Positions 1 through 15,773 of a stretch of DNA of 16,195 nucleotides are shown here, in pieces. The translations under genes and the position numbers were made by a program. Origin of the DNA: a bacterium (GTDB lineage: Bacteria > Patescibacteriota > Minisyncoccia > Phycocordibacterales > JAUSIJ01); assembly GCA_030647855.1 (NCBI GenBank), contig JAUSIJ010000058.1, positions 1 through 16,195 on the forward strand, written 5' to 3'. Under the pieces are notes generated by a model. The model worked only from the letters and a program-made list of their open reading frames with translations, was not told the DNA's origin and made no database searches. Every line of letters begins with the position of its first letter. Within the stretch, counting starts at the first letter, position 1.

Positions 1-2
1 AC

Positions 3-203: not shown

Positions 204-218
204 ACAGCACTTCTCTGC

Positions 219-224
219 TATAAT
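219..224 (+). promoter_or_regulatory. -10 box TATAAT of a leaderless transcript
   Basis: A perfect TATAAT lies six bases before the ATG at 231 and there is no Shine-Dalgarno sequence, so transcription probably starts at or next to the A of the ATG. No good -35 box is seen. Confidence 0.6.
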
Positions 225-230
225 TGCCTT

Positions 231-455: not shown

Positions 456-456
456 C

Positions 457-1059
457 ATGTTTGCTTTTTTAAGAAAATCAAGCGGTCAGCCGAGAAAGAT
501 CTTGATTCTTCTGGGGCATCCGGACAAGGAAACCACCTGCGGGCACCTGGCGGATTCTTATGAAACGGGCGCTAGGCAAGCAGGACACGAGGTGCGCCGG
601 ATAAATATCGGGGAGCTCACTTTCGACCCCATCCTTCACAAAGGCTACAAAACGGTTCAGGAACTTGAACCGGATCTTGTTATGGTACAGGAGGCTTTCA
701 AGTGGGCGGGCCATGTCGTTATTCTCTATCCCAACTGGTGGTCGAGCATGCCCGCGCTACTCAAGGGCATGTTTGATCGGATGTTTTTACCAGGATTTGC
801 GTACAATTTTCACCAATTTGGCTGGGATAAACTGCTCAAGGGGAAAACTGGGCGGGTAATTATTACCATGGACAACTGGCCGCTTCTTGCCCGCGTAATG
901 TTTGGCGACTATACGAACGAAATCACAAATGCCATTCTCGGTTTTTCCGGAATTAAGCCCGTGCATATTTGGAAAGTCGGCCCGCTCAAGCATATGAATG
1001 AGATTGAGAAAAATGACTGCATTGATAAAGCCTTTGCTTTAGGCGGGCAAGCATTTTAA
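457..1059 (+). CDS. NAD(P)H:quinone oxidoreductase, flavodoxin-2 family
   Basis: A 200-aa protein of the NQO/MdaB/YwrO group, which bind FMN or FAD and transfer two electrons from NAD(P)H to quinones in the cytosol. The N-terminal strand KILILLGHPDKETTCGHLAD (from residue 14) is the phosphate-binding loop region. The segment YPNWWSSMPALLKGMFDRMF followed by LPGFAY (around residues 91-116) is the family signature that packs on the isoalloxazine ring. The C-terminal part (MDNWPLLARVMFGDYTNEI) fits the family length of about 190-210 aa. The start follows the previous stop by one base with only a weak purine stretch, suggesting translational coupling. Family assignment is firm; the physiological acceptor is unknown. 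Confidence 0.88.
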   Translation: MFAFLRKSSGQPRKILILLGHPDKETTCGHLADSYETGARQAGHEVRRINIGELTFDPILHKGYKTVQELEPDLVMVQEAFKWAGHVVILYPNWWSSMPALLKGMFDRMFLPGFAYNFHQFGWDKLLKGKTGRVIITMDNWPLLARVMFGDYTNEITNAILGFSGIKPVHIWKVGPLKHMNEIEKNDCIDKAFALGGQAF

Positions 1060-1063
1060 ATCT

Positions 1064-1099
1064 AAAAAAAAGAGGTAAGAGTCAGCTGACTCTTACCTC
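1064..1099 (-). terminator. intrinsic terminator made of a 28-nt perfect palindrome
   Basis: Positions 1072-1099 are a perfect palindrome (arms GAGGTAAGAGTCAG / CTGACTCTTACCTC) followed, on the minus strand, by eight T (A-run 1064-1071). The TGA stop of the minus-strand gene lies inside the palindrome. No T-run follows on the plus strand, so it should end only the minus transcript. Confidence 0.8.
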
Positions 1100-1594
1100 A
1101 AGAACGATACCCCTCCTCTTTTTCGCTAGTGTAAGACGCTTGGCAATATTCTGTGCCAAACTGCTTAAACTGTGCGGGTTCAGAAGATCTCCTCTACTTA
1201 TGAGAAAATGTGCCTTCTGCGTCGATTTCTTCTCCCAATTTTCCGAGAGATCAAAACTGACAATAAAATTTCGAATGGGCTCAAGATAAAAGAAACCGTC
1301 AATACCGTGATACAGATCGAGCTGACTGCCCAGAGCACAGCAAAGACGTAAATTCGATCTCTCCCGACCAAGGTAACGGCGAATTTCTCTCATGAGCATT
1401 ATGCTCAATTTGGCCGAGGGCTGTATGGGGTTCCAACCGATGTTTGACTGATGTTCGCGTACTAACTGCACGCTCGCCCAAAAATTCGAGTAATTCGGCA
1501 CGCTGGTAAAGGATGCGCTAAAACCGAAAAAATCTTCTTCCAGACGAACCCCGTTCCCGTCCTCTTTTTTGGGCTGGACTTCCGCTGCAGGCAT
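1082..1594 (-). CDS. hypothetical protein, 170 aa
   Basis: A 170-aa soluble protein without a recognisable catalytic motif. The N-terminus is a charged low-complexity stretch (MPAAEVQPKKEDGNG), the middle has aromatic beta-like segments (DFFGFSASF, YHGIDGFFYLEPIRNF) and the C-terminus is basic (AKRLTLAKKRRG). The start at 1594 is set by a strong Shine-Dalgarno AGAGGAGGAGAA directly upstream, unlike the leaderless neighbours. A promoter TTGACC-N17-TATGTA fits the stretch upstream. It diverges from ychF and ends in its own terminator, so it is a single-gene unit. Function not assigned. Confidence 0.65.
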   Translation of the reverse strand: MPAAEVQPKKEDGNGVRLEEDFFGFSASFTSVPNYSNFWASVQLVREHQSNIGWNPIQPSAKLSIMLMREIRRYLGRERSNLRLCCALGSQLDLYHGIDGFFYLEPIRNFIVSFDLSENWEKKSTQKAHFLISRGDLLNPHSLSSLAQNIAKRLTLAKKRRGIVLEVRVS

Positions 1595-1718
1595 TTCTCC
1601 TCCTCTTGTATGAAGCTTCTAGCATATACATATCATGATTATAAATGTCGGTCAACTTGTCATAGGAAGATTCGAAATGTTAATTGTGTAGCTTTAAAAA
1701 TTATGACACTATACCAAA

Positions 1719-2813
1719 ATGTCACTCTCTATCGGCATTGTCGGATTGCCAAACGTCGGGAAATCCACGCTTTTTAATGCACTTACAAAGAGGAGCGTCT
1801 TAGCTGCCAACTATCCCTTTGCCACCATTGACCCTTCTGTTGGCGTCGTTGCGGTACCGGATGATCGTCTGCATAAACTCACCGATTTTTCGAAGTCAGC
1901 TAAAACTGTTCCTGCCGCTATCGAATTTGTGGATATCGCGGGGCTGGTCAAGGGAGCCTCGGAGGGCGAAGGTCTCGGCAATCAGTTTTTGGCAAACATT
2001 CGAGAGGTAGATGCCATCGCGGAAGTGGTTCGTGTTTTTGATGATAGCGATATTATTCACGTAGCGGGGAAAATAGATCCGCTTGAAGATATTCAGGTGA
2101 TTAACCTCGAGCTTGGTATGGCAGATCTCGAGACGATTACGAAACGGTTGAGCAATATCCAGGGCGACGTTCGGAAGGGAAGCAAACTCGCGATCAAAGA
2201 AAATGAGGTTCTGGAGAAAGTGAAAGCAACCCTCGAGCAGGGAAAACTGACCCGAACACTGGTTTTGAATGACGAGGAGAAGGCGATCCTCAAAGGCATG
2301 CATCTTTTGACTGCCAAACCGATTCTTTATGTGCTCAATCGTAAAAGCGGAGGCAACAATCTCGAGCAGGGCGACGAGAGGTACGAGCGCTTAATGAAGT
2401 TTTTCACAGATTCGGAGGCGCTTTTTGTGACGGTGGACGCCGGCATCGAGCAGGAGCTTAAAGACCTCGAAGGAGATGAGAAATTAGAATTCCGCAAAGA
2501 GCTTGGGGCAAGTGACGATGGGATCAGCAATCTTATCCGCAAGGGCTATGAATTGCTTGATCTTATAACCTATTTTACGACCGGCGAGGACGAGACGAGG
2601 GCTTGGACAATCAAGCGTCATTCGAGTGCGCCCGAGGCCGGTGCCGCTATTCACAGTGATTTTCAAGAAAAGTTTATTCGAGCAGAAGTGATTGCCTATG
2701 AAAAGCTTCTTGAAGCGGGTTCGTACTCCGCCGCCCGCGAAAAAGGATGGCTGCGCACGGAAGGGAAGGAATACATCGTCCAAGACGGTGATGTAATCGA
2801 GTTTAGGATTTAG
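1719..2813 (+). CDS. ychF: Obg-family GTPase/ATPase YchF (OLA1)
   Basis: A 364-aa P-loop protein of the universal YchF/OLA1 family, which prefers ATP over GTP and associates with ribosomes; it has been tied to translation and stress responses. The G1 P-loop GLPNVGKST starts near residue 9, switch II is [10 protein letters not shown] (about 72-81) and [15 protein letters not shown] follows as in the family. The usual NxxE-type G4 region reads [13 protein letters not shown]-terminal TGS domain is seen ([13 protein letters not shown], then [17 protein letters not shown]). Length is normal. There is no Shine-Dalgarno; an AT-rich CACTAT/TATACC region lies 4-7 bases before the ATG, so a leaderless mRNA is likely. 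It marks the left housekeeping edge of the accessory island. Confidence 0.95.
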
Positions 2814-2847
2814 TCATGGCTTATGTATGTCGCATATGATAATCTCA

Positions 2848-2933
2848 TTATGACAGAGTGCCGGATAGTCCCGCATTCCAAGCATTAGTCCTGTTAACTG
2901 TAGGGCAGGGGTCTCGAATCTCTGCCATTTTTT
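2848..2933 (+). ncRNA. array unit P0, small structured RNA with terminator
   Basis: The unit follows ychF. A TATGAT box at 2835-2840 could start an RNA here. The inner stem is GAGTGC/GCATTC with an outer ACAG/CTGT stem; it ends in hairpin 2903-2926 (GGGCAGGGG...CTCTGCC) and a T-run. It is the only plus-strand unit left of the RAMP-like gene and meets unit M9 head-on at a shared T/A tract. Confidence 0.5.
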
Positions 2934-2939
2934 ATCCAT

Positions 2940-3033
2940 AAAAAATGGCAAGACCTTGTGAGATCTTGCCCCATGGTTTGCGCCAGCGCTCCTAACTCTG
3001 GACAGCTAGGCTAAAGAACGCGTCGCTGAGTGC
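2940..3033 (-). ncRNA. array unit M9
   Basis: The promoter TTGCCA (3062-3067) -N16- TAAAAT (3040-3045) is read on the minus strand, with the -35 lying inside the terminator of M8. Nested stem: CAGCG 2984-2988 with CGCTG 3024-3028, and CCTA with TAGG (2991-2994, 3007-3010) inside. The terminal hairpin is 2947-2971 (GGCAAGACCT...GATCTTGCC), followed by T6. Confidence 0.55.
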
Positions 3034-3055
3034 GGCCCAATTTTATTCGAAATAT

Positions 3056-3164
3056 AAAAAATGGCAAGGATCTTTCGAACCTTGCCCAGTAGTATAGGGC
3101 TGACGGCGACACCAAGCTGCAGCGAGCGGGACCTCACGCCACTACGATCCACTGGGCGATGTGC
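3056..3164 (-). ncRNA. array unit M8
   Basis: The promoter TTGCCA (3193-3198) -N16- TAATTT (3171-3176) is on the minus strand, with the -35 in the M7 terminator arm. An internal stem is formed by CGCC 3137-3140 and GGCG 3155-3158. The terminal hairpin 3063-3086 (GGCAAGGATC...AACCTTGCC) is followed by T6. Confidence 0.55.
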
Positions 3165-3187
3165 TAGTAAAAATTATCATAAGTTAT

Positions 3188-3288
3188 AAAAATGGCAAGA
3201 CATTGATAGTCTTGCCCTGAAGGGGAGTCGGCGGTAGTGAACTCAAGCGTACTGGACTATGCCTAAGTATGCTGGACTAAGTTTAGCC
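3188..3288 (-). ncRNA. array unit M7
   Basis: The promoter TTGCCA (3318-3323) -N17- TATATT (3295-3300), minus strand, is among the best in the array. The unique part contains a short direct repeat (CTGGACTA at 3252-3259 and 3272-3279 on the plus strand). The terminal hairpin is 3194-3216 with CTTGCCA and T5. Confidence 0.55.
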
Positions 3289-3311
3289 ATCGCTAATATA
3301 TATAAAGAAAT

Positions 3312-3410
3312 AAAAAATGGCAAGATCATGAGATCTTGCCGTGTAGAATAGTATAGCCGACAGAGCATAGGAACACCACGCTGAGCGGAGCATCGCAGTG
3401 ACACTCAAAC
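3312..3410 (-). ncRNA. array unit M6, last of the terminator-less block
   Basis: No promoter is seen directly upstream, so it is probably read through from M1-M5. The terminal hairpin 3319-3340 is a perfect GGCAAGATC/GATCTTGCC stem with T6 and is the first true terminator after the RAMP-like gene's own. Its 3' arm supplies the -35 of M7. Confidence 0.5.
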
Positions 3411-3513
3411 GACAGCAACCCCGTTAAGGATCGCTGTCCTGCGGAACATCTTACTATAGAGGACGCCACGGGGCATTGGTACTCGGTAGTGGCCTCTACT
3501 ACATTAGAGAAAC
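3411..3513 (-). ncRNA. array unit M5, hairpin without T-run
   Basis: Nested internal stem: TAGAGG 3457-3462 with CCTCTA 3493-3498, and CCAC 3466-3469 with GTGG 3489-3492. The terminal hairpin 3411-3437 (GACAGCGATCC...GGTTGCTGTC, with G-U pairs) is followed by GTTTGAG rather than a T-run. No -10 box follows. Confidence 0.5.
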
Positions 3514-3609
3514 GACGGCGATATGTTTCCACACCGCCGTCCTGGAGCGAGGCCAACACTAGGCAGCTCCTCTGGAGAGCGCTAGAGGCCGCCGGACGAG
3601 ATAACAAGT
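3514..3609 (-). ncRNA. array unit M4, hairpin without T-run
   Basis: The internal stem is CCTCT 3569-3573 with AGAGG 3584-3588. The terminal hairpin 3514-3541 (GACGGCG...CGCCGTC) has stem bases unlike its neighbours but the same size and position. It is followed by GTTTCTC, not a T-run. Confidence 0.5.
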
Positions 3610-3713
3610 GGCAGTAACCGCGTTAACGATCACTGCCCTGAACCCAAGCGCATCGCAGGACACACTGCCCGAGTCAGCAATGCGCAACACGAGTCTATGC
3701 TACTTACTCAAGA
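3610..3713 (-). ncRNA. array unit M3, hairpin without T-run
   Basis: The internal stem is a perfect GCGCAT/ATGCGC (3648-3653, 3680-3685). The terminal hairpin 3610-3637 (GGCAGTGATCG...CGGTTACTGCC) keeps pairing through G-U wobbles. It is followed by ACTTGT, not a T-run. Confidence 0.5.
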
Positions 3714-3804
3714 GACAATGACTCATTTCTGAATCATTGCCCTGTAGGGAGGGCCACCTTACCTCTGCGTGCAGATCTCAGCTGGACGCCGCTAAGTGCT
3801 AAAC
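3714..3804 (-). ncRNA. array unit M2, hairpin without T-run
   Basis: The internal stem is CTCAGC 3777-3782 with GCTAAG 3791-3796 (one G-U). The terminal hairpin 3714-3741 (GGCAATGATTC...GAGTCATTGTC) is followed by TCTTGAG. It is the shortest period in the array, 91 bp to the next hairpin. Confidence 0.5.
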
Positions 3805-3921
3805 GACAGCGATCCGTTAAGGATCGCTGTCCTGAAGAGGAGTAAGCCTGTGTACAGATGTCGTTAGTTCACTCGGCTGGACTAGACAATACCCAACTGA
3901 GTGTGAAGGGACTTGATAATA
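3805..3921 (-). ncRNA. array unit M1, first minus-strand unit
   Basis: A promoter TTGCAA (3951-3956) -N17- GATATT (3928-3933) lies just past the RAMP-like gene terminator. Transcription would begin in the palindrome ACTTGATAATATCAAGT (3911-3927). Nested stem: CACTC/GAGTG (3870-3874, 3899-3903) and CTGG/CCAA (3877-3880, 3893-3896). The terminal hairpin 3805-3831 is a perfect 11-bp stem followed by GTTTAG, no T-run. Confidence 0.5.
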
Positions 3922-3927
3922 TCAAGT

Positions 3928-3956
3928 AATATCGAAGTTCGACCTTGATATTGCAA
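3928..3956 (-). promoter_or_regulatory. putative promoter of the M1-M6 block with adjacent palindrome
   Basis: TTGCAA-N17-GATATT on the minus strand, with a perfect 17-nt palindrome abutting the -10 at 3911-3927. The palindrome could be an operator or a 5' hairpin on the RNA. Confidence 0.4.
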
Positions 3957-3957
3957 G

Positions 3958-3991
3958 AAAAAAGCAGGCGTTCGTAATGACACGCCTGCTT
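3958..3991 (-). terminator. terminator of the RAMP-like gene
   Basis: AAGCAGGCG (3962-3970) pairs with CGCCTGCTT (3983-3991), and the minus strand continues into T6. It sits 19 nt past the stop of the RAMP-like gene and does not use the array GGCAAG stem. Confidence 0.8.
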
Positions 3992-4010
3992 AGATTTCTG
4001 ATAGGTTCAC

Positions 4011-4859
4011 CTAAACAAGGTGAAGGAACGAACCGATAGCGATGAGGACCGCTGCCACAGCGGCGAGGCGACCTCGACGCGCACGCTTGGGCTTGCCGTC
4101 GCCGTTGTCATCGGGAGCCGTGCCTGCAAGGGCGGCCGTCCTGGCTTCATCGGCATCCGCCGGCTCGCCGTTCTCCTGCGTGCCGGCATAGTTCACCTCG
4201 ACTGCCGGTCCGCTCTGCTTCGAGAGTTTCTCCTCTTCGAGCCACTCCTTCGGGGTGATATCCTCGAACTTCACCACCGCGAAGGTGCCGAAGGGCCCCT
4301 TGCAGTTGGGACGGAACGAGCCGAGACCCTGACACTCACCAGCGACGCTGAAGAGTGCTTGGATGGTGCTCGGACTGCCAGCGGGTGACTTGTTCTTCAC
4401 CACGATTATAACGGTGAAGCCCCACTCTTTGAACTTGGGGCGAATGAGACCAACCGCCGTACCGTCGGGCAGACGCCCACGGCGCTTATCCACGATCCAC
4501 GGGGCCTCGCTGGCGCCTTCCGGTATCGGGAACGTGAGGAACTCTTCCTCGAACCTGAGGAACGAGGGGAGGAGGGTCGTTTTGGCCGTCGAGATCATCT
4601 TGCGGCCCTGGAAGGGAACCATGCGGCCGGCCTCGACGAGCGAGGCATAGAGCATGGTGGCCGGCAAGCCAATCTGGCCATGCCGATCGTCATCCGGGTC
4701 ATCGAGACGATAGATCTTCTCCCGCGCCGTCTCCTCGAAGGGGCGATCCTTCTTGAGCTGAGGCCGGACACCGGTGATGAGACCAGTCAAGGTCTCATCG
4801 GTCATCCGGTCTGACATGAGCGGATTGGTCCCCCGTACAGTGATGCGGTACCTGCGCAT
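4011..4859 (-). CDS. Cas7/RAMP-like protein with acidic linker and C-terminal hydrophobic tail
   Basis: A 282-aa protein. Residues 1-205 resemble a family of uncharacterised phage and plasmid proteins. It has an N-terminal strand RYRITVRGTNPLM, a motif IGLPATMLYASLVEAGR (63-79) like the ylPgSSLkGalR motif of Cas7/RAMP proteins, and a glycine-rich loop GLGSFRPNCKGPFGTF (178-193) like RAMP C-terminal G-loops. Such folds bind structured or guide RNA. From 206 on comes an acidic linker (to about 253), a basic KPKRARRGR (257-264) and a hydrophobic LAAVAAVLIAIGSFLHLV (265-282), possibly a tail anchor. The start is set by AAGGAG eight bases upstream. Its leader is structured, its promoter is back-to-back with that of the plus-strand array, and RNA units follow its terminator. 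No catalytic residues are evident. The RAMP link is motif-based inference; no search was run. Confidence 0.65.
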   Translation of the reverse strand: MRRYRITVRGTNPLMSDRMTDETLTGLITGVRPQLKKDRPFEETAREKIYRLDDPDDDRHGQIGLPATMLYASLVEAGRMVPFQGRKMISTAKTTLLPSFLRFEEEFLTFPIPEGASEAPWIVDKRRGRLPDGTAVGLIRPKFKEWGFTVIIVVKNKSPAGSPSTIQALFSVAGECQGLGSFRPNCKGPFGTFAVVKFEDITPKEWLEEEKLSKQSGPAVEVNYAGTQENGEPADADEARTAALAGTAPDDNGDGKPKRARRGRLAAVAAVLIAIGSFLHLV

Positions 4860-4935
4860 AGGCAGTACTCCTTAGAATAGCGCTTATCGAAGCGCTGACA
4901 ATGGACAGTTGAGCAAGACAGTCTCACCCAATCTG
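4860..4935 (-). promoter_or_regulatory. structured 5' leader of the RAMP-like gene
   Basis: The leader is about 75 nt. A perfect 7-bp stem-loop AGCGCTT-cgat-AAGCGCT (4879-4896) lies just upstream of the Shine-Dalgarno AAGGAG. It could set translation rate or be a binding site for the protein itself. Confidence 0.5.
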
Positions 4936-4941
4936 GGGCTA

Positions 4942-5000
4942 GTTCTATCAGGCGATTGCTATCGAGTCAACTTGACTAGGAAATAACAATAATGTTTAGT
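4942..5000. promoter_or_regulatory. back-to-back divergent promoters sharing a -35 palindrome
   Basis: AGTCAA-c-TTGACT (4965-4977) carries a TTGACT -35 for each strand. Minus: TTGACT-N17-TAGAAC (-10 at 4942-4947) toward the RAMP-like gene. Plus: TTGACT-N17-TTTAGT (-10 at 4995-5000) toward unit U1. The palindrome could also bind a dimeric regulator acting on both arms at once. Confidence 0.55.
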
Positions 5001-5006
5001 AAAACT

Positions 5007-5092
5007 CGTAAACCTATGCACCGTCCAGCATTCTATGCTGCACCTGGGCTTAGTTTAGTGCAGGGCAAGGTTAACCATACCTTGCCATTTTT
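5007..5092 (+). ncRNA. array unit U1, first plus-strand unit
   Basis: The unit is read from the divergent promoter. Outer stem TGCAC 5017-5021 with GTGCA 5058-5062, inner perfect stem CAGCAT-tct-ATGCTG (5026-5040). The terminal hairpin 5064-5086 (GGCAAGG...CCTTGCC) is followed by A and T5. Confidence 0.6.
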
Positions 5093-5116
5093 ATTGACAT
5101 TAGATAGTCTATGGAT

Positions 5117-5212
5117 CATCGCAGTGGCGCGAAGTTATGACCAGTGCGGTAGGGCTTCCTAGTCCTTACCAAAGTGCTGTCCACGGCAAGGTACCCAATC
5201 CTTGCCATTTTT
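5117..5212 (+). ncRNA. array unit U2
   Basis: The promoter TTGCCA (5082-5087, inside the U1 terminator) -N17- TAGTCT is weak in the -10. An internal stem GGTAGG/CCTTACC (with a bulge) is seen near 5147-5170. The terminal hairpin is 5185-5206, then T5. Confidence 0.55.
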
Positions 5213-5235
5213 ATTTGTAACTGTAACATTCAAAT

Positions 5236-5323
5236 ATCTGCTGTGGTGCAAAGCTAAGTTAAGCGTTGTTAACCATAGCACGGTCCAGTCGACGCCAGAG
5301 TAACCAATCTCTGGCATTTTTTT
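5236..5323 (+). ncRNA. array unit U3, alternative terminal stem
   Basis: The promoter is TTGCCA (5202-5207) -N16- TAACAT (5224-5229). A long internal stem TGCTGTGGT 5239-5247 with ACCATAGCA 5272-5280 has one G-U pair. The terminal hairpin uses GCCAGAG/CTCTGGC (5294-5315) instead of GGCAAGG, with both arms changed together, then T7. Confidence 0.6.
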
Positions 5324-5346
5324 GTTGTCTTTGATAGATTTGAGTC

Positions 5347-5428
5347 GCGTGGTCAAGCCAAGCTTCGTATTGTGTTGCTGCTTGTGCCCCAGTAAGGAGC
5401 GGAGATTATGTCTCCGCTATTTTTTTTA
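5347..5428 (+). ncRNA. array unit U4, alternative terminal stem
   Basis: A possible promoter is CTGGCA (5311-5316) -N18- TAGATT (5335-5340). The terminal hairpin is AGCGGAGA-ttatg-TCTCCGCT (5398-5418) followed by A and T9. No unit promoter follows it, in line with the loss of the TTGCC arm. Confidence 0.55.
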
Positions 5429-5437
5429 AATTATGAA

Positions 5438-5463
5438 AACCCACGCGAGAACGTGGGTTTTGT
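5438..5463. terminator. bidirectional hairpin ending the small minus-strand gene
   Basis: AACCCACG (5438-5445) pairs with CGTGGGTT (5452-5459). TTTT follows on both strands. It lies 14 nt past the stop of the 75-aa gene and 10 nt past the U4 T-run, so it insulates the two directions. Confidence 0.65.
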
Positions 5464-5476
5464 ATGTCGTGTGCCG

Positions 5477-5704
5477 TTAGTGTGCGGTTACAAGGTTGAT
5501 CAGTCGCTCAGCTTCCGCATTCAATGCCTTAGCCGAAGCGATATCTCCTTGCTGCCGCGCCTGTTCGGCCCGTTCGATGAGGTTGTAGACCACATCCACT
5601 GGCTTGTGTCGAACCAGTCGCTCAATCGGTACTGGACGAACCGGCTGCGGACCACACGCGAACGACGGAATGAAAGCGCAACCTTGCGCAATGACGATAT
5701 CCAT
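5477..5704 (-). CDS. small hypothetical protein inside the array, 75 aa
   Basis: A 75-aa protein, MDIVIAQGCAFIPSFACG at the N-terminus, then a Pro/Arg-rich linker (PQPVRPVPIERLVRHKP) and an amphipathic helical C-terminal half (VVYNLIERAEQARQQGDIAS). The start at 5704 is chosen because GGAGG lies eight bases upstream; the reading frame could extend 18 residues further but has no ribosome site there. It has its own strong promoter and terminator, and is transcribed against the flanking plus-strand array units. I do not recognise the family. The position suggests an accessory or regulatory protein of the island, but nothing in the sequence proves it. Confidence 0.6.
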   Translation of the reverse strand: MDIVIAQGCAFIPSFACGPQPVRPVPIERLVRHKPVDVVYNLIERAEQARQQGDIASAKALNAEAERLINLVTAH

Positions 5705-5781
5705 AATAGGCCTCCTTCGGCCTCTGATGGTGCAGATGGTGCAGTGAAATGAGGCCAATCCTCACTTCGTACCTATTAGCT

Positions 5782-5810
5782 ATAGTACACCCTAACGTTT
5801 GTTTTGTCAA
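5782..5810 (-). promoter_or_regulatory. strong consensus promoter of the 75-aa gene
   Basis: TTGACA (minus strand, 5805-5810), 17-nt spacer, TACTAT (5782-5787), then about 75 nt of leader to the ATG. One of the two best promoters in the window. Confidence 0.8.
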
Positions 5811-5855
5811 GCCCTAAATGAGAGTTACCGTTTTTTGCCTTTTTTAAGCCACCTT

Positions 5856-5884
5856 TTGCTTTCCTCTCAATTGGCGTGTATATT
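5856..5884 (+). promoter_or_regulatory. promoter restarting the plus-strand array at U6
   Basis: TTGCTT (5856-5861) -N17- TATATT (5879-5884). It follows the interrupting minus-strand gene, where no preceding array terminator could lend its -35. A stretch TTTTTTGCCTTTTTT at 5831-5845 looks like a remnant of a unit terminator. Confidence 0.6.
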
Positions 5885-5890
5885 TTAGAC

Positions 5891-5980
5891 TACTTAGCCA
5901 GAGCTCTGCGGACCCTTCTCCAGCAAGCTCCCGCTGGCTTATGTATTGGGCAAGGACTTGTCGGTTCTTGCCTTTTTTTT
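5891..5980 (+). ncRNA. array unit U6
   Basis: Outer stem AGCCAG 5896-5901 with CTGGCT 5934-5939, and a smaller CAGC/GCTG stem inside. The terminal hairpin 5949-5972 (GGCAAGGAC...GTTCTTGCC) is followed by T8. It is preceded by its own promoter at 5856-5884. Confidence 0.6.
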
Positions 5981-6002
5981 CAGAAGGTCCTAATTTATTG
6001 AT

Positions 6003-6119
6003 TGGAATTGGGCAGCGTCCTGTACTGTTACGCTCGCTTCGGTAGAGTTTTCTAACGCGTAGTCCACGGCAAGGTAACCCTCTCGACTTCGCTCGAGGCA
6101 GGCAATCCTTGCCTTTTTT
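6003..6119 (+). ncRNA. array unit U7, terminator loop enlarged by a 28-nt insert
   Basis: The promoter is TTGCCT (5968-5973) -N17- TAATTT (5991-5996). The internal stem is AGCGT 6014-6018 with ACGCT 6030-6034. Terminal arms GGCAAGG 6068-6074 and CCTTGCC 6107-6113 flank a loop holding a second hairpin (CTCGA...TCGAG), identical over 28 nt to that of U16. Confidence 0.6.
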
Positions 6120-6143
6120 ATATAAAGATTATATTTTATTCTT

Positions 6144-6230
6144 CTGGAGCAGGGTAGAGCGGAGCACCGTAATCTGCGCATGTGTACTGTTCCGTATACG
6201 GCAAGGTTACCCATACCTTGCCATTTTTTT
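6144..6230 (+). ncRNA. array unit U8
   Basis: The promoter is TTGCCT (6109-6114) -N17- TATTTT (6132-6137). Nested internal stem GCAG/CTGC (6149-6152, 6174-6177) with CGG/CCG inside. The terminal hairpin is 6200-6222, then T7. Confidence 0.55.
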
Positions 6231-6252
6231 AGATGGATGATAGCCTGCGTAT

Positions 6253-6353
6253 CGATAATGTAGCGTAGAGTAAGCTACTGTCCGGTCGTGTTCTCTGCCC
6301 CACGCTGCGGTCGCGCATACTTTACGGCAAGGTAACCACTCCTTGCCTTTTTT
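6253..6353 (+). ncRNA. array unit U9
   Basis: The -35 TTGCCA (6218-6223) is good but the -10 TAGCCT (6241-6246) is weak. The internal stem is GTAGC 6260-6264 with GCTAC 6274-6278. The terminal hairpin is 6326-6347, then T6. Confidence 0.5.
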
Positions 6354-6379
6354 ATGTCTTACCCACAATATTATTCACA

Positions 6380-6473
6380 TAGCGTTAAGTGCTGTGCGGT
6401 TCTGTATTGTGAAGCTTAGCGCAGCATGATCGCCTCTCGTATAGGGCAAGATCTTGTGATCTTGCCATTTTTT
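6380..6473 (+). ncRNA. array unit U10, immediately before the helicase gene
   Basis: The -35 TTGCCT (6343-6348) has a less regular spacing (CAATAT at N17 or TATTAT at N20). The internal stem GCGTTAAG 6382-6389 with CTTAGCGC 6415-6422 is 8 bp with one G-U. The terminal hairpin is 6445-6466 (GGCAAGAT/ATCTTGCC), then T6. Confidence 0.55.
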
Positions 6474-6489
6474 ATGGTTGTGGTAATTT
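6462..6489 (+). promoter_or_regulatory. helicase promoter built on the U10 terminator
   Basis: TTGCCA (6462-6467), the 3' arm of the U10 terminator, -N16- TAATTT (6484-6489). The T-run lies in the spacer. The protein gene therefore uses the same promoter layout as the RNA units. Confidence 0.6.
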
Positions 6490-6494
6490 AGCGC

Positions 6495-6560
6495 CAGATG
6501 TTTTTTGAAAAGTCCAAGCAATTTCTGCCTATGCAGGCAGGGCTCGGACGGTAACATCTG
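6495..6560 (+). promoter_or_regulatory. structured 5' leader of the helicase gene
   Basis: Three nested stems: CAGATGTT/AACATCTG (6495-6502, 6553-6560), GTCC/GGAC (6512-6515, 6546-6549) and CTGCCT-atgc-AGGCAG (6525-6540). The layout resembles the bulged stem of array units. The Shine-Dalgarno AAGGAGG follows at 6571-6577, outside the structure. Confidence 0.6.
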
Positions 6561-6582
6561 TACCATCTATAAGGAGGTCGCC

Positions 6583-8442
6583 ATGAGCGACACGCAAAGG
6601 ATTAGTTTACCGGTTCTTTTGAACAACTTCCCGAGTACTGCGGTATATCGGGATCCTCGGCGGGTGCAAACCGACATGCTCGAGTTTGTTGCCAAGCACG
6701 GCTCCTCTCTCATCGAGGCGCCCACAGGCAGCGGCAAAACCGCGGTGGAATATGCCATCGCCCACGCCGCCAAAAACAAGTTCGGAACGACCTTTATCAT
6801 CACCCCGAACAAGACGATTCTCGACCAGATCAGGACGGAATTTCCGGACCTCTGGTACGCGCTCGGCCGTAATGAGCATCCCTGTCTCTACTATGTGGAG
6901 AATAAGAAGACGCTCACGCCTATTACCGTTGAGGGACTGCGTCTCGATCCGGAAAACCCGCGAGCCGACGAGATTCCATGTTCGTTCCTCACTGACTGTC
7001 CGCATCGTGTGTATCAAGACACCGGTAAAACTCACGAGGAAGGTGCCTACCGGTGTCCTTACCTCGAACAGAAGTGGGAAGCCAAGCAGAGGGGAGTCGT
7101 CGTAGCGACGATGTCCTTCTATCTCTTCACTCATCTGTTTACTCAGGAGTTTGATACGGAAGCGGTCGTCATTGACGAAGCGCACCGTATCGCAGACGTG
7201 ATCAGGAACGCCCTCTCGTACGAAATCACCGACTATCATCTCAAGCGCTCAGCCGAGCTCTTGAAAGATGTAGCACCGGCTGAAGCAAAGGTTTTCAGGC
7301 GGTTTGTGGCGGCAATGATCAAGATCGCCAAGACCAAACGGCCAGGCGAAACTACGATTCTTGACCGCAAGGAAATCGAGCGACTTCTCGACATCATCTC
7401 TGATGTCGACAGCAAGGGGCTTGCAGCGGCGATCAAGAGAGCGGTCGAGGCAGGGCAGATTAATCCCCGCAAGGATCGCGTGGAACTGCGTAAGCTCGAG
7501 GTGCTCGTGCGCGATATCAGGCGCTACATCAAGTCCTTTGAGTACTCGATGCCTATTGGTGAGCCGGGAGAGCGGGGCTTTCGCAATGCGCTCAATTACA
7601 CGTGCGCTTACCACAAGGTCGAAAAGGGCGAACGCGACAAAGTCGAGCACAAACTCGTGATCAAGTGCTACTACGTCGTGCCGATTGTGCGCAAGATTTT
7701 GCCATCATTTCGGGTGTCGCTCTCTGCAACGATCGGCGATCCGGAAGTGTTCGGATATGAAAGCGGTATCAAGGACCCGTTTCTCTCTCTCGGTTCAAAT
7801 TTCCCGGCAGAGAACGCGCGGATCTACATGCCGCAGGATACGCCGAATCTTGCTCTCAATAACCGCTCTCGCCGCGATCTGCCGCAATCCTTGCGGAAGA
7901 TGGCTCGGGCGGCCAAGAGGTTCAGCAACAAAGGGATTCGTTCTCTTGTTGTCACCATCTCGAATGATGAACGGGAGCGGTTCCTTATCATGGCAGAAGA
8001 AGAGAAGCTCGATGCGATGAGCTACGGCAACGGAGTGACTGCCAAAGAGGCGGCGCTTCGTTTCCGGGACGGCGAGGGGAAAGTCCTCGTCGGTACGGCG
8101 GCGAACTACTCCGAAGGAGTAGACTTGCCGAAGCAAATGGCGCCGGTAATCTTTTTTCTGCGGCCGGGATATCCCAACCCCCGCGATCCCATGACGCAGT
8201 TTGAGGAGCAGCGCTTTGGCGGAGCCCGCTGGGCGCTCTGGAACTGGCGGGTGATGCAGCAGGCGCTGCAGGTACGCGGTCGCAATGTCCGCAGCCGATC
8301 CGATATCGGCGTAACGTTCTTTATAAGCCAGCAGTTTCGGCGAGTGCTCTTTGCGGCGCTTCCCGAATGGCTTCAGAAATCCTATCGAGGTGAAATAACC
8401 TTCGATGAAGCGGTTAAGGATGCCGAGAGGCTGCTTGGATAG
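6583..8442 (+). CDS. XPD/DinG-family superfamily 2 DNA helicase with Fe-S cluster motif
   Basis: A 619-aa helicase of the Rad3/XPD/DinG family, ATP-driven 5'-3' enzymes that unwind DNA or displace R-loops. Residues seen: Walker A EAPTGSGKT (45-53), motif Ia FIITPNKTILDQI, DEAH box VVIDEAHRIADV (198-201), SLSATIGDPEVFG (motif III region), SEGVDLP (motif V) and QALQVRGRNVRSRSDIG (motif VI, arginine finger). Four cysteines between motifs Ia and II (C101, C133, C139, C158) match a 4Fe-4S ligand set. The start at 6583 follows AAGGAGG; an upstream extension would run through the structured leader. It is shorter than E. coli DinG (about 716 aa) and lacks an exonuclease domain. Its promoter overlaps an array terminator, and more units follow it. 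CasDinG of type IV-A CRISPR is a relative by family; a generic DinG is the alternative. Confidence 0.88.
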   Translation: MSDTQRISLPVLLNNFPSTAVYRDPRRVQTDMLEFVAKHGSSLIEAPTGSGKTAVEYAIAHAAKNKFGTTFIITPNKTILDQIRTEFPDLWYALGRNEHPCLYYVENKKTLTPITVEGLRLDPENPRADEIPCSFLTDCPHRVYQDTGKTHEEGAYRCPYLEQKWEAKQRGVVVATMSFYLFTHLFTQEFDTEAVVIDEAHRIADVIRNALSYEITDYHLKRSAELLKDVAPAEAKVFRRFVAAMIKIAKTKRPGETTILDRKEIERLLDIISDVDSKGLAAAIKRAVEAGQINPRKDRVELRKLEVLVRDIRRYIKSFEYSMPIGEPGERGFRNALNYTCAYHKVEKGERDKVEHKLVIKCYYVVPIVRKILPSFRVSLSATIGDPEVFGYESGIKDPFLSLGSNFPAENARIYMPQDTPNLALNNRSRRDLPQSLRKMARAAKRFSNKGIRSLVVTISNDERERFLIMAEEEKLDAMSYGNGVTAKEAALRFRDGEGKVLVGTAANYSEGVDLPKQMAPVIFFLRPGYPNPRDPMTQFEEQRFGGARWALWNWRVMQQALQVRGRNVRSRSDIGVTFFISQQFRRVLFAALPEWLQKSYRGEITFDEAVKDAERLLG

Positions 8443-8456
8443 TCGTGAGTGATTTC

Positions 8457-8544
8457 AGGAGCACTTAAGTGGTTTCCACTTAACATTGCTACCGCGCATT
8501 CCCGCACAGGCGCAGGTCAGTCACCGATTGACTTGCGCTTTTTT
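8457..8544 (+). terminator. 3' end of the helicase transcript (unit U11-like)
   Basis: A perfect stem TTAAGTGG-ttt-CCACTTAA (8465-8483) is followed by the terminator GCGCA.GTCA...TGAC.TGCGC (8510-8538) and T6. This repeats the two-hairpin layout of array units but has a different terminal stem. Confidence 0.7.
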
Positions 8545-8574
8545 ATTTGTTATTTTGTTTTCTAAATTAGACAC

Positions 8575-8658
8575 CGGTATGCTTTACTCCCGCCAGCTTC
8601 AGTGCGGCACGGCGTCGTTATGTGTAGGGCAAGGTTATCCATACCTTGCCATTTTTTT
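8575..8658 (+). ncRNA. array unit U12
   Basis: A possible -10 TAAATT (8563-8568) lies in a T-rich stretch without a clear -35. Nested stem CGCC/GGCG (8591-8594, 8611-8614) with GTGC-g-GCAC inside. The terminal hairpin is 8628-8650, then T7. Confidence 0.5.
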
Positions 8659-8677
8659 ACAATAATTTAAGATTTGC

Positions 8678-8779
8678 CAGTGCTGTGTTCGAGAGTCTTG
8701 TATTTTAAAGTATCGCACAACAGCGAAAACTCCTGCGGACTAGCACTACAGGGCAAGAGATAACTCTCTTGCCATTTTT
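8678..8779 (+). ncRNA. array unit U13
   Basis: The promoter is TTGCCA (8646-8651) -N16- TAAGAT (8668-8673). The outer stem is AGTGCT 8679-8684 with AGCACT 8742-8747. The terminal hairpin GGCAAGAGA/TCTCTTGCC (8752-8773) has a 9-bp perfect stem, then T5. Confidence 0.6.
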
Positions 8780-8802
8780 ATTGATTAACTTATGCTTGGC
8801 AG

Positions 8803-8899
8803 CATCAAGCTTCGTGGCGCAGAGTGTTTTGTCGTCTGGTACTCTGGCCTAGAGCTAAGTCCACTCCACGGCAAGGTATCCAACCCTTGCCATTTTTTT
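8803..8899 (+). ncRNA. array unit U14
   Basis: The promoter is TTGCCA (8769-8774) -N16- TATGCT (8791-8796). The internal stem CAGAGT 8820-8825 with ACTCTG 8841-8846 is extended by GG/CC across a bulge. The terminal hairpin is 8870-8891, then T7. Confidence 0.6.
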
Positions 8900-8921
8900 A
8901 ACGTCCGTATTTAATAAGTCC

Positions 8922-9017
8922 GTCAGTCTTAGCCCGCAGTTATGCGGTGTAAGGACTAGTTATCTCCCGTACGGTTCACTATCGCACAGGGCAAGACTCC
9001 GATGTCTTGCCATTTTT
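8922..9017 (+). ncRNA. array unit U15
   Basis: The promoter is TTGCCA (8887-8892) -N17- TTTAAT (8910-8915). Nested stem AGTC.TTA/TAA.GACT (8925-8931, 8950-8957) with CCGCA-gtta-TGCGG (8934-8947) inside. The terminal hairpin is 8990-9011, then T5. Confidence 0.65.
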
Positions 9018-9040
9018 ATTGTTTCCAGTAGTATCTCTTT

Positions 9041-9158
9041 GTTCTGTTCTGCAACGCAGGGTACTTTGGTGTCGGCTCTAGCGCGGTCATGTAAAGTTCG
9101 GTGCACGGCAAGGTAGCCCTCTCGACTTCGCTCGAGGCAGGCAACCCTTGCCTTTTTT
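9041..9158 (+). ncRNA. array unit U16, terminator loop enlarged by the same 28-nt insert as U7
   Basis: The promoter is TTGCCA (9007-9012) -N16- TAGTAT (9029-9034). A small stem CTGC-aac-GCAG sits at 9049-9059. Terminal arms GGCAAGG 9107-9113 and CCTTGCC 9146-9152 flank the inserted CTCGA...TCGAG hairpin, then T6. Confidence 0.6.
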
Positions 9159-9181
9159 AAATTGCGATGTAAATTAATTTA

Positions 9182-9266
9182 ATCGCACTAACCTTCGCCG
9201 CTGTTACCCTAGGCGATGTTCGTTAGTCCAATGTTCAGGGCAAGACATGCATGTCTTGCCGTTTTT
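9182..9266 (+). ncRNA. array unit U17, last plus-strand unit
   Basis: The promoter is TTGCCT (9148-9153) -N16- TAAATT (9170-9175). Nested stem ACTAAC/GTTAGT (9187-9192, 9222-9227) with TCGCC/GGCGA (9195-9199, 9212-9216) inside. The terminal hairpin is a perfect 10-bp GGCAAGACAT/ATGTCTTGCC (9239-9260), then T5. Confidence 0.65.
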
Positions 9267-9282
9267 ATTAAAAAAGTTTACT

Positions 9283-9319
9283 AAAAAGGGCGCCGAGGTG
9301 TGGGTGTAACCTCGGCGCC
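9283..9319 (-). terminator. strong minus-strand terminator facing the end of the array
   Basis: GGCGCCGAGGT (9289-9299) pairs perfectly with ACCTCGGCGCC (9309-9319) and T5 follows on the minus strand. It would stop minus-strand transcription before it enters the array. The stretch 9320-9437 upstream of it on that strand shows no gene that I can support. Confidence 0.6.
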
Positions 9320-9437
9320 AAGGAAGGAGGGGAAGGCGATTTGAAGAACGTACAAAACTAACATAACCTATCAGAATTAAGATTTTATGAGGATCTGTGA
9401 ATAATCCTGCATGCTCGAAAGTGCTAGATCTGCATAT

Positions 9438-9546
9438 AAAAAAAGCGCCGTGTGGGAATGGGGTTGACCACGGCGCTGGGCTAACGGGCGCGCTCGCTCC
9501 GGGGTTTTATCACCACCTTTCATTGTTTGTGCGAGCGCATCAGACT
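9438..9546 (-). ncRNA. candidate small RNA with promoter and terminator
   Basis: On the minus strand a TATACT box (9553-9558) is followed by paired GCGCTCGC/GCGAGCGC (9490-9497, 9531-9538) and a terminator AGCGCCGTG/CACGGCGCT (9444-9452, 9469-9477) with T7. No convincing open frame with a ribosome site lies within it. Promoter, internal stem and terminal hairpin repeat the array-unit layout, but stem sequences differ and the -35 is poor. Confidence 0.35.
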
Positions 9547-9575
9547 ATCCATAGTATACACCATGCCCTTCATAA

Positions 9576-9710
9576 ACCCGCACACTGAGTTTGGTCAGGT
9601 TGCAGCAATTACACGAAAATATTTATAGTGGATTGTCTTTCCATCATTTCATTTAGGTAATTTAAAATTGGTTAAGCAACTGATTGCATGACCAAACTTA
9701 GTGTGCGGGT
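9576..9710. repeat. 135-bp element bounded by 22-bp inverted repeats
   Basis: The arms 9576-9597 and 9689-9710 match as inverted repeats at 21 of 22 positions (ACCCGCACACT...TTTGGTCA). The 91-bp AT-rich interior has no reading frame; a small GTTGC/GCAAC pair lies inside it. It could be a miniature mobile element or a large hairpin. No target-site duplication is seen. Confidence 0.55.
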
Positions 9711-9744
9711 AAAAAAATTCCGCTTGGCCAGCCAAACGGAATTT
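9711..9744 (-). terminator. terminator of the two-helix membrane protein gene
   Basis: AAATTCCGCTTGG (9715-9727) pairs with CCAAACGGAATTT (9732-9744), one wobble, with T7 on the minus strand. Confidence 0.8.
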
Positions 9745-9765
9745 CTCGTGTTTGTTGTAGACTTG

Positions 9766-9966
9766 TCAGTTCTCGGTGGCGGGCGCCGTCTTGTCGAGGA
9801 AAATGCTCGCGAGTGCTGCGATGATACCTCCGCCCCAGAAGCAGGCGAGAGAGATAAGGATCGCGAGGTTACGGCTGACTACCGCAAGCAGCGTTGCGGC
9901 TAGGATACCGAAAGAAAACAGAGCGAGTCCGGCAAACACGATCAAACGGTAGACCAATTCTCGCAT
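9766..9966 (-). CDS. small two-helix membrane protein, 66 aa
   Basis: A 66-aa protein with two hydrophobic segments: LIVFAGLALFSFGILAATLL (about residues 8-27) and LAILISLACFWGGGIIAALA (about 34-53). A short polar tail DKTAPATEN follows. The start at 9966 is selected by GGAGG five bases upstream; longer in-frame starts lie on or before that ribosome site. It has a perfect consensus promoter and its own terminator, so it is a strongly expressed single gene. Small two-helix membrane proteins include holins, toxins and stress peptides, but no family motif is seen here and I assign no function. It lies at the right edge of the accessory island. Confidence 0.65.
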   Translation of the reverse strand: MRELVYRLIVFAGLALFSFGILAATLLAVVSRNLAILISLACFWGGGIIAALASIFLDKTAPATEN

Positions 9967-9992
9967 AAGAACCTCCATTTGTTCCGGTGTCA

Positions 9993-10021
9993 ATTATATC
10001 ACCGAACCTATACTATGTCAA
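9993..10021 (-). promoter_or_regulatory. perfect sigma-70 type promoter
   Basis: TTGACA (10016-10021), 17-nt spacer, TATAAT (9993-9998), minus strand. The leader is about 20-26 nt and carries GGAGG. Confidence 0.88.
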
Positions 10022-10086
10022 GTGATTAAGCACCAAGTACCAAGGAATCCCCAAGTTAAGGTATTTTTCATATAATAAGTATGTAG

Positions 10087-10092
10087 TATAAT
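10087..10092 (+). promoter_or_regulatory. -10 box of the DUF5671 gene
   Basis: TATAAT at 10087-10092 with TTTTCA at a 16-nt spacing; a second TATAAT lies at 10071-10076. The leader to the ATG would be about 20 nt and has no clear Shine-Dalgarno. Confidence 0.5.
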
Positions 10093-10118
10093 CAAGCTCA
10101 TCTAATGGAACACATATT

Positions 10119-11042
10119 ATGAGAACAACACCCAAAGATTTTTTTCTTCATCTAGGCGTTATCATAACGCTCTATGTCTCGATTATTAGCTTTCTGACGC
10201 TTATATTTCGGGTCGTTGATTATGCCTTTCCCCCTGCCTTCGAGCGTTATTTTGCAACCTCAGCCATAAGCTGGCCGGTGGCGTCGCTTATCATAATTTT
10301 CCCCATTTACCTCATTCTTTCCTGGATCCTTAACCGAGATTATGTCGCAAATCCCGAGAAGCGTGATCTCGGCATCCGCCGATGGTTGCTCTACATCACC
10401 CTCTTCATCGCTGGCATAGCGATCGTAACGGATCTCATTGTCCTCCTTTACTACTTCCTCGACGGCCGATTAATTACGGCGGGCTTTATTCTTAAAGTGC
10501 TCGCTGTCTTTGTGGTCGCAGGCGGCGTTTTCAGCTACTACATTCTTGACCTTCGGGAGCGAACTAACAGGGGCGTAAACAAACTCTTCGCCGTGATTGC
10601 CGCGCTTCTCGCTATCGGATCGATTGTGGCAGGCTTTGCCGTCATCGGATCACCACAGACCCAGAGGCAACTGCGTTACGACCAGCAAAAAGTTCAAGAC
10701 CTTCAGATGATCCAAGGACAGGTATTAGAATACTGGAATAGGACGGATAAACTCCCAGAGACACTCGCCGAAGTTGATGATATTCTTGCCGGTTTCAATA
10801 TTCCGGAAGATCCACAAAGTCAGCCATACGAGTATCGAAAAATTGCAAATCTTAACTTTGAATTATGCGCAACTTTTAACCTTCCAAGCAATGAAGGGAA
10901 GAACAAGAGGGCGATACCGGAGCCGATCTATGGTCCCTACGGCCTTGTTGATGAAGACTGGAAGCATAGCGATGGACGAAGTTGTTTCGAACGGACGATT
11001 AGGCCGGAACTCTTTCCGGACAAACCTCAAAAAGCACAATAA
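10119..11042 (+). CDS. DUF5671-type membrane protein with periplasmic pseudopilin-like tail
   Basis: A 307-aa protein. The first half has about five transmembrane segments (near residues 11-31, 50-68, 88-113, 120-143 and 155-176). Its start FFLHLGVIITLYVSIISFLT and the following RVVDYAFPP match the DUF5671 proteins common in Parcubacteria. The last 120 residues are soluble; LRYDQQKVQDLQMIQGQVLE followed by YWNRTDKLPETLAEV resembles the amphipathic helix and small-peptide region of type IV pilin-like proteins. Two cysteines (CATFNL, RSCFERT) could form a disulphide outside the cell. Function is not known; an envelope role is likely from topology. The gene stands alone between a divergent small gene and leuS. 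Confidence 0.75.
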   Translation: MRTTPKDFFLHLGVIITLYVSIISFLTLIFRVVDYAFPPAFERYFATSAISWPVASLIIIFPIYLILSWILNRDYVANPEKRDLGIRRWLLYITLFIAGIAIVTDLIVLLYYFLDGRLITAGFILKVLAVFVVAGGVFSYYILDLRERTNRGVNKLFAVIAALLAIGSIVAGFAVIGSPQTQRQLRYDQQKVQDLQMIQGQVLEYWNRTDKLPETLAEVDDILAGFNIPEDPQSQPYEYRKIANLNFELCATFNLPSNEGKNKRAIPEPIYGPYGLVDEDWKHSDGRSCFERTIRPELFPDKPQKAQ

Positions 11043-11051
11043 AGGGCGCTC

Positions 11052-11145
11052 GGACTTTACTCTGGAAAAGCACGGATATCCGCCTCAGGCGGATTCCTCC
11101 AGCTCGCGCTGTCGCGCTCGCTAGTCTTTTCCAGGGACAAAGTCC
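11052..11145. repeat. stem-swapped hairpin repeat A
   Basis: Ends GGACTTT/AAAGTCC enclose a stem CTGGAAAAG/CTTTTCCAG (11062-11070, 11126-11134) and an inner hairpin ATCCGCC-tca-GGCGGAT. Between the stems lies a conserved GC-rich stretch (CTCGCGCTGTCGCGCTCGCT). Repeat B has the same frame but unrelated stem sequence. Confidence 0.7.
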
Positions 11146-11171
11146 TCGCTTTTGCATAGAGGTCGCAGGGC

Positions 11172-11240
11172 CTTCAGAAACGACACCCTCGCTTCTGTAG
11201 AAAAAAGTGCAGTACTAACTCCGCGATGTTTTCTGAAAGA
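11172..11240. repeat. weak hairpin D upstream of leuS
   Basis: CTTCAGAAA (11172-11180) and TTTCTGAAAG (near 11230-11239) pair with one bulge. It is followed by ATACCCGAGT, which also follows repeat C. Relationship to the other repeats is uncertain. Confidence 0.35.
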
Positions 11241-11291
11241 ATACCCGAGTGATATTTTACAAACTTAGATTTTCGTAGTACTCTTTTGAGT

Positions 11292-14672: not shown

Positions 14673-14691
14673 CGTGTGGATTATTAGCTTC

Positions 14692-14720: not shown

Positions 14721-14732
14721 GAATAGACAACC

Positions 14733-15764: not shown

Positions 15765-15773
15765 AGGTCGCTC

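Follow-up and report, generated by a model that had tools for sequence, protein, structure and literature searches.

We analysed contig JAUSIJ010000058.1 of the patescibacterial assembly GCA_030647855.1 (positions 1 to 16,195, forward strand; this whole 16,195-nucleotide stretch is called the window), a 16.2-kb contig from a genome (G000) of 68% completeness. Between positions 2820 and 9320 it carries a locus that is almost certainly a Viral Interference Programmable Repeat (VIPR). Only two large open reading frames (ORFs) lie within this region. A gene for a YchF-type GTPase is followed by a 282-aa gene at 4011-4859 on the minus strand and a helicase gene at 6583-8442 on the plus strand, with tandem units on both sides. 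These units form two opposed arms, the left mostly on the minus strand and the right on the plus strand, and a single unit consists of an AT-rich lead, a unique segment of ~55 nt and a hairpin. An initial annotation, made from the sequence alone, had described two large genes here within about 26 tandem units. Both genes were present where it had placed them and tandem units do flank them, but our count was 25.

Our literature search returned a single fitting match, as far as the accessible part of that source goes: the preprint PMC13142463 (bioRxiv 2026.04.26.720920), which describes VIPR and its protein Vipr, a phage ancestor of the RAMP proteins. In VIPR, the guide RNA (vrRNA) consists of 9-16 YNNGG repeats (GGY/NN or a "related consensus") and a structured tail, double-stranded DNA is recognised through the NN dinucleotides with one base skipped, and vrRNAs were sequenced from SUSP1-infected cells (PMC13142463). 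The accessible part of the preprint lists seven VIPR types, some with helicases or nucleases, as well as hammerhead-interspersed arrays and chromosomal copies (PMC13142463). The five-nucleotide rhythm and the link between gene and lattice reported below were derived before we knew of the preprint, and the two lines of evidence are therefore independent.

The 282-aa protein encoded by the vipr gene at 4011-4859 is a Cas7-like RAMP and a homologue of Vipr. In its structural model residues 1-212 were folded and the C-terminal tail had low confidence, and fold matches assigned the predicted structure to the Cas7/Csm3 fold. A profile comparison with the SUSP1 Vipr (36pp_D) gave a match at E = 4e-10. 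Its nearest relatives were Csm3, the type VII Cas7 and Vipr rather than the type IV-A backbone. The RAMP-like protein of the initial annotation thus has the expected fold and a sequence relative in the SUSP1 Vipr.

The second gene encodes a DinG/XPD-type helicase of 619 aa with four conserved cysteines. We aligned 15 rows, the window included, and the resulting profile matched structures of XPD, Rad3 and DinG (best E = 3.7e-22; DinG, E = 1.3e-13). Residues G49, G51, K52, D198, E199, H201, C101, C139 and C158 were invariant in the 15 rows and C133 was nearly so. Because the Walker A, DEAH and cysteine residues are invariant or nearly so, the helicase looks catalytically intact from its sequence, with an iron-sulfur (Fe-S) cluster; we take the conserved cysteines to mark the Fe-S cluster of the XPD/DinG family. 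Profile matches and conserved residues place the enzyme in the XPD/DinG Fe-S kind, in line with the DinG-type assignment made earlier. It matched the PADLOC typeIV_DinG model at E = 1.6e-42 and scored 26.3 bits against the NCBIfam csf4 equivalog, for which the cut-off is 400. The gene is likely an accessory effector, a vap gene.

We then examined 2820-4010 (−), 4861-6600 (+) and 8443-9320 (+) for guide-RNA units, counting a unit as lattice-positive when it had a hairpin and, in a single phase, 8 or more [GC][CT] pentads out of 11. Twenty-two hairpins were lattice-positive and three further ones (from 2970 on the minus strand, and from 2904 and 8752 on the plus strand) were weaker or had been missed by the finder, which makes 25. 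In the left arm, the minus strand carries units at 2947-3026 (lattice 2972-3026, hairpin from 2970; 10/11 pentads), 3063-3142 (hairpin 3086-3063; 10/11), 3194-3272 (hairpin 3216-3194; 11/11) and 3319-3396 (hairpin 3340-3319; 11/11), the last three with a T run, and then five units whose hairpins have none, at 3411-3494 (8/11), 3514-3597 (10/11), 3610-3693 (10/11), 3713-3797 (8/11) and 3805-3887 (9/11). The unit at 2850-2932 is on the plus strand and has a weak lattice (7/11), with a hairpin at 2904-2926 and a T run. All remaining units are on the plus strand. Between the genes, terminator-like hairpins end the units at 5008-5086 (11/11), 5129-5206 (10/11), 5238-5315 (11/11), 5342-5418 (9/11), 5893-5973 (11/11), 6144-6222 (10/11), 6270-6347 (11/11) and 6389-6466 (10/11), and the unit at 6012-6113 (11/11) has an extra inner hairpin in its tail. 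Downstream of the helicase gene, units with terminator-like hairpins lie at 8572-8650 (10/11), 8814-8891 (10/11), 8934-9011 (10/11) and 9183-9260 (9/11), together with one at 9051-9152 (10/11) that has an extra inner hairpin in its tail and one at 8680-8773 with a weaker lattice (7/11). Of the 22 lattice-positive units, 17 had a run of five or more T after the hairpin; the five units without one are consecutive, with hairpins at 3411-3831. Counted from the start of the last pentad, the hairpin began after six bases in 20 of the 22 and after five in the other two, and the stems differed between units with pairing kept. The right array also contains a 75-aa ORF at 5477-5704 (−) whose ribosome site looks good by eye and whose only matches among the collected loci were the window's own stretches. 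The arrays of L002 and L003 likewise contain small or unrelated ORFs.

When 75 units of five genomes were aligned at the first base of the hairpin stem, a period of 5 nt emerged. Every fifth base was T or C (G, 0-8%), the base before this pyrimidine was G or C (A, 0-4% in the nine nearest pentads) and the remaining three bases were free, giving a rhythm of [G/C][T/C]NNN that is phase-locked to the hairpin and fades past ~10 pentads. For the 25 units of the window, [GC][CT] was found in 210 of 275 pentads at the locked phase, compared to 54-91 at each of the other four; slight errors in two of the 25 hairpin starts used lower the former count. Across the whole window, 12 stretches (one of them antisense to a unit) reached 11 of 12 pentads, versus a mean of 0.1 in 20 block shuffles. 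We also assembled 240 units from 20 loci of the candidate phyla radiation (CPR), admitting 8-20 pentads. In this set, which was selected by the rhythm itself, the first base was G or C in 94% and the second T or C in 94%, followed by three near-free bases of which the last was G in 36% and C in 17%. The length of 9-16 pentads known from vrRNAs was found in 220 of the 240, as [GC][CT]NNN and not as GGYNN. The units are thus pentad-lattice segments with a 3' hairpin, like vrRNAs. We rejected the idea that the guides are contiguous copies of foreign DNA, as A made up 18-19% of the segments in all five genomes; this odd composition is due to the 5-nt rhythm.

The initial annotation had called the unique segments structured. 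We found them to be weakly so (mean folding z-score −0.78, with 19% below −2, in 79 segments from five loci) and dropped this idea; what the segments have in common is the 5-nt periodicity. Rfam searches of the window gave a best match at E = 0.37, far under the gathering score, those of L002, L003, L004 and L006 gave tRNA alone at E ≤ 1, and the six matches in the L004 array were weak and below gathering. L004 has nine hammerhead-like modules between units, in which a CUGANGA-type core and GAA are combined with three stems (a seven-pair stem III, with stems I and II paired), and 50 shuffles of L004 produced none. One such module was present in L005 and none was found in the window. Rfam did not report the L004 and L005 modules, perhaps owing to a mismatch adjoining the core. 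In Gordonia phage MakoManhole (L023), inter-unit hairpins at 1650-1700, 2985-3025 and 3100-3145 resemble a tRNA T-arm or minihelix by eye, a hint that its units are released by tRNA-processing enzymes.

The initial annotation had proposed a search of CPR genomes and phages for the same combination. The window protein itself gave no match in viral contigs, and an alignment query gave one locus. Searches by tblastn with two distant relatives yielded 123 and 130 phage records, and in the four phages examined the Vipr gene adjoins a lattice of stricter form: Felixounavirus Alf5, Pseudomonas LESphi2 and Gordonia MakoManhole have GGYNN, and phiHSIC has a GCAAN-like version. As an unbiased test of the link, we used the DNA pattern (GGYNN)8GGY alone as the query against viral contigs, keeping near-duplicates. 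Among the matches listed, a Vipr gene was present in 90 of 120 lattice loci with a hidden Markov model (HMM) built without these loci, and in 91 of 120 with one that included them. This compares to 1 of 120 loci listed for a period-6 control pattern and 9 of 119 for a GGRNN control, whose 120th locus was left out as it was already a lattice locus, without the gene. The nine gene-bearing GGRNN loci (within L272-L390) are perhaps purine variants of the lattice. At the gene-bearing lattice loci, overlapping lattice matches (median distance, 180 bp) numbered 915 on the gene strand and 2 on the opposite strand. Thirty of the 120 lattice loci listed (L032-L151) had no Vipr gene by the HMM built without them, some of them being short pieces; others may be satellites that use another phage's Vipr or unknown partners.

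Vipr relatives were patchy in cellular genomes, occurring in 8 of 379 genomes of the phylum, 9 of 297 of the order and 4 of 383 of the class, or 1-3%, where the draws overlap and each count includes the window genome. Order-level searches around G054 and G249, both from the window's own phylum, found the centre genomes alone (1 of 3 and 1 of 11). The five named loci closest in genes and layout (L002-L006) are labelled Paceibacterota, Doudnabacteria or Patescibacteria. An HMM built from the helicases of the window and three relatives, all four counted among the CPR loci, detected the helicase gene in 18 of 23 CPR loci with Vipr, the window included. The gene is cut off or partial in L025 and L405 and in two pieces in L407. 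It was not found in L004, L005 and L029, whose contigs end near the gene or array, nor in L408 and L413; the terminal bases of L004 resemble a helicase start by eye. We conclude that gene, lattice and helicase recur together, as the proposed search had anticipated. Two Vipr matches each were seen in L027, L408 and L409, the last with 42 lattice units. A FastTree phylogeny of 114 rows contained 22 rows from the 23 CPR loci after length filtering, and these needed two changes, compared to 20.3 in shuffles. The CPR part of the tree has poor internal support, and L030 is on a long branch.

Next, we asked which bases are shared between units of different genomes, comparing the 240 CPR units at every whole-pentad shift that left 8 or more pentads overlapping (252,323 comparisons). 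For bases 3-4, five pairs reached p < 1e-7 and seven p < 1e-6; with the five other position pairs and with shuffled pentad order, p < 1e-7 was never reached and p < 1e-6 no more than once each. The five strongest pairs fall into three groups, L403/L405/L407, L402/L407 and L402/L403. Between L403 and L405 (offset 5, 12 pentads), bases 3-4 agreed at 21 of 24 positions, and bases 1, 2 and 5 at 3, 8 and 2 of 12. The seven pairs together (77 pentads) had identities of 0.44, 0.69, 0.87, 0.82 and 0.40 at bases 1-5, where chance gives 0.50, 0.53, 0.26, 0.26 and 0.27. Both L402/L403 pairs (offsets 0 and −1) also retain the scaffold and base 5, and may reflect common descent. These comparisons support the view that bases 3-4 are held above all, by selection or a shared target. 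The sharing across species at whole-pentad offsets supports the published dinucleotide code, and we consider it likely that this code operates in the present branch. Read as antisense codons, the guide shared by L403, L405 and L407 gives H/Q-F/L-I/M-I/M-T-P-(L or I/M)-T-A-D/E-D/E, with a Leu to Ile/Met change at its sole altered pentad. This reading is suggestive only. Tests of stop-codon phase were equivocal: antisense stops in the decoded triplets of one phase numbered 8 versus 17.5 in 54 units and 63 versus 79.7 in the 240 units, and in the latter another phase was lower still (133 versus 163). In the other phases, overlap of decoded strings between units showed nothing clear except pairs within one array.

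Around the locus, a 22-nt inverted repeat with 95% complementarity (9576-9597 and 9689-9710, 91 nt apart) lies just beyond the array and is possibly a small insertion element or an edge. Further downstream, 11286-14672 encodes a leucyl-tRNA synthetase of 1128 aa in which, by Pfam, the match to the editing domain (419-548) is flanked by an alpha/beta (serine) hydrolase domain at ~244-388 and a NUDIX domain at 565-693. It is followed at 14733-15764 by a sigma-70 region 4 domain fused to a HARE-HTH domain. Upstream, between a flavodoxin-fold gene and ychF, a 170-aa ORF (1082-1594, −) gave no convincing match in family scans, with one octapeptide-repeat match at E = 0.59. In L006, the VIPR locus (9018-16813) lies by eye within a ribosomal protein operon, between L2-like and S19-like genes.

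Taken as a whole, the locus is best explained, with high confidence, as a Patescibacteria-type VIPR with a DinG/XPD-like helicase. Most units of the window would be freed singly by their terminators, and those of the relative L004 by the hammerhead-like ribozymes. Following PMC13142463, Vipr would coat the guide RNA, whose dinucleotides would pair with double-stranded DNA, one base per triplet being skipped. We propose that the complex would bind virus or plasmid DNA and that the helicase would unwind this target, strip its proteins or contribute to its destruction. Host immunity would be the outcome, given the long arrays and the housekeeping genes on the contig. The system is probably used against viruses, and we lean slightly towards immunity with the helicase as effector. 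We put forward more hesitantly, and at somewhat less than even chances, a host-immunity branch with a relaxed scaffold, in which guides would drift except at the coding dinucleotides, unrelated species would direct their guides at a single codon-phased gene of a virus or plasmid, and the effector would be a DinG-type helicase rather than a nuclease.

Several observations weigh against this interpretation. Comparison of the units with viruses, which the initial annotation had also suggested, was run on the collected loci (6.7 million bases, both strands) and on viral contigs and found no target. In the collected loci, neither 150 of 343 decoded phage guides nor 234 of the 240 CPR guides under five rules did better than shuffles. 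In viral contigs, two target patterns from the shared consensus had 0 matches, and a shorter one had 2, about as many as the ~3 that we estimate for chance at an assumed collection size; both lie in the predicted antisense codon frame. L026, L029 and L030 have Vipr and almost no lattice, L026 and L030 with a helicase and L029 truncated by its own contig end. In the tree, none of the strongly supported sets includes the window row. Finally, L408 and L413 show no helicase, and the helicase might act in regulation or processing.

The best-placed alternative builds on this last point, namely that in this VIPR the helicase works in the processing of guides or the regulation of genes instead of immunity. 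Phage VIPRs act as repressors and vap1 merely enhances repression (PMC13142463), which speaks for it. The housekeeping surroundings, the long array and the guides common to different species fit defence better, and we regard this alternative as unlikely, if worth keeping in mind.

Less probable still is a relative of VIPR in which all three free bases of each pentad are read, so that an interrupted guide would face a contiguous target with no base skipped. In its favour, dinucleotide odds were strand-symmetric (r = 0.88 for bases 4-5; r = 0.86 for base 5 and the next base 3), as expected of adjacent target bases on both strands, with symmetric covariances of 0.0446 and 0.0277 over a null of ~0.002 that was as high in 0 of 2000 shuffles. 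In addition, the composition of base 5 is nearly free, its pooled agreement of 0.40 exceeds the chance value of 0.27, and in two of the seven best pairs it agrees at 8 of 14 and 7 of 11 pentads. Base 5 may therefore also carry target information, which would make for a different code. On the other hand, base 5 was near chance in the remaining five pairs (2/12, 4/9, 5/10, 3/10 and 2/11), in which bases 3-4 match at 77-94%, and the two exceptional pairs (offsets 0 and −1) keep the scaffold and may share descent. A scan with all three bases likewise found no target. We give the unit pairs more weight than the symmetry statistics.

Two further readings can be set aside with little hesitation. That the arrays are DNA-level elements (iterons or filament binding sites) rather than RNA genes is very improbable: some phage lattices do lie near DNA replication or lysogeny genes, but stems vary with pairing preserved, most window units finish in a T run, lattice matches fall on the strand of the gene (915 to 2), L004 has nine hammerhead-like modules between units, and such RNAs were sequenced in SUSP1-infected cells (PMC13142463). 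Scarcely any weight is left for a derived type IV-A CRISPR-Cas with a Cas7-like backbone and DinG and no repeats, as the repeats present are diverged hairpins, the region holds just two large ORFs, the Csf4 score is far below its cut-off, and Csm3, the type VII Cas7 and Vipr are closer to the 282-aa protein.

Like type IV-A (Csf2 with DinG/Csf4), the locus pairs a RAMP with a DinG-family helicase; its guide, however, is a pentad lattice and it has no CRISPR array. The repeat families of the array were diverged hairpin tails that differ between units, although no CRISPR-finding program was applied, and the two large ORFs of 2820-9320 matched none of Csf1, Csf3 (Cas5) and Csf5 (Cas6), with ORFs below 125 aa left unscanned except one. 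The earlier statement that CRISPR repeats, Cas5 and Cas6 are missing agrees with this. Compared to type III (Csm3) and type VII (Cas7) systems, the window has a single RAMP gene and no CRISPR repeats, and no Cas10-like ORF is among its two large genes. With VIPR it shares the Vipr homologue, ~11 tandem pentads with a 3' hairpin tail, an array beside the gene and an accessory DNA enzyme. The reading as an RNA-guided system therefore finds its counterpart in VIPR, and the suggestion of a relative of a CRISPR ancestor came close, given that Vipr is described as the RAMP ancestor (PMC13142463). The window differs in its scaffold, [G/C][T/C] with three free bases where VIPR has GGY with two, and in its ~25 units in two opposed arms, mostly with their own terminator-like tails, and its DinG-type helicase. 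[GC][CT]NNN fits the "related consensus" only if fig. S17 of the preprint, beyond its accessible part, agrees. The helicase can be compared with vap1-6 by kind only, helicase types being mentioned in that part, and a helicase-bearing subtype may already be among the published types. What we add is the relaxed scaffold, with three free bases and not two, and the sharing across species of mainly bases 3-4; drift outside two bases per pentad offers a way of reading the code from sequence alone. Hypothetical genes of the cultured phages Alf5, LESphi2, MakoManhole and phiHSIC belong to this kind of system. VIPR is a candidate root of Class 1 CRISPR only a few months old, and a cellular, helicase-bearing branch with ~25 guides resembles the step from inter-phage weapon to host immunity proposed in PMC13142463. 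If the host-immunity branch is real, it would be a natural halfway step from phage VIPR to the helicase-bearing CRISPR systems, type IV-A or those with Cas3.

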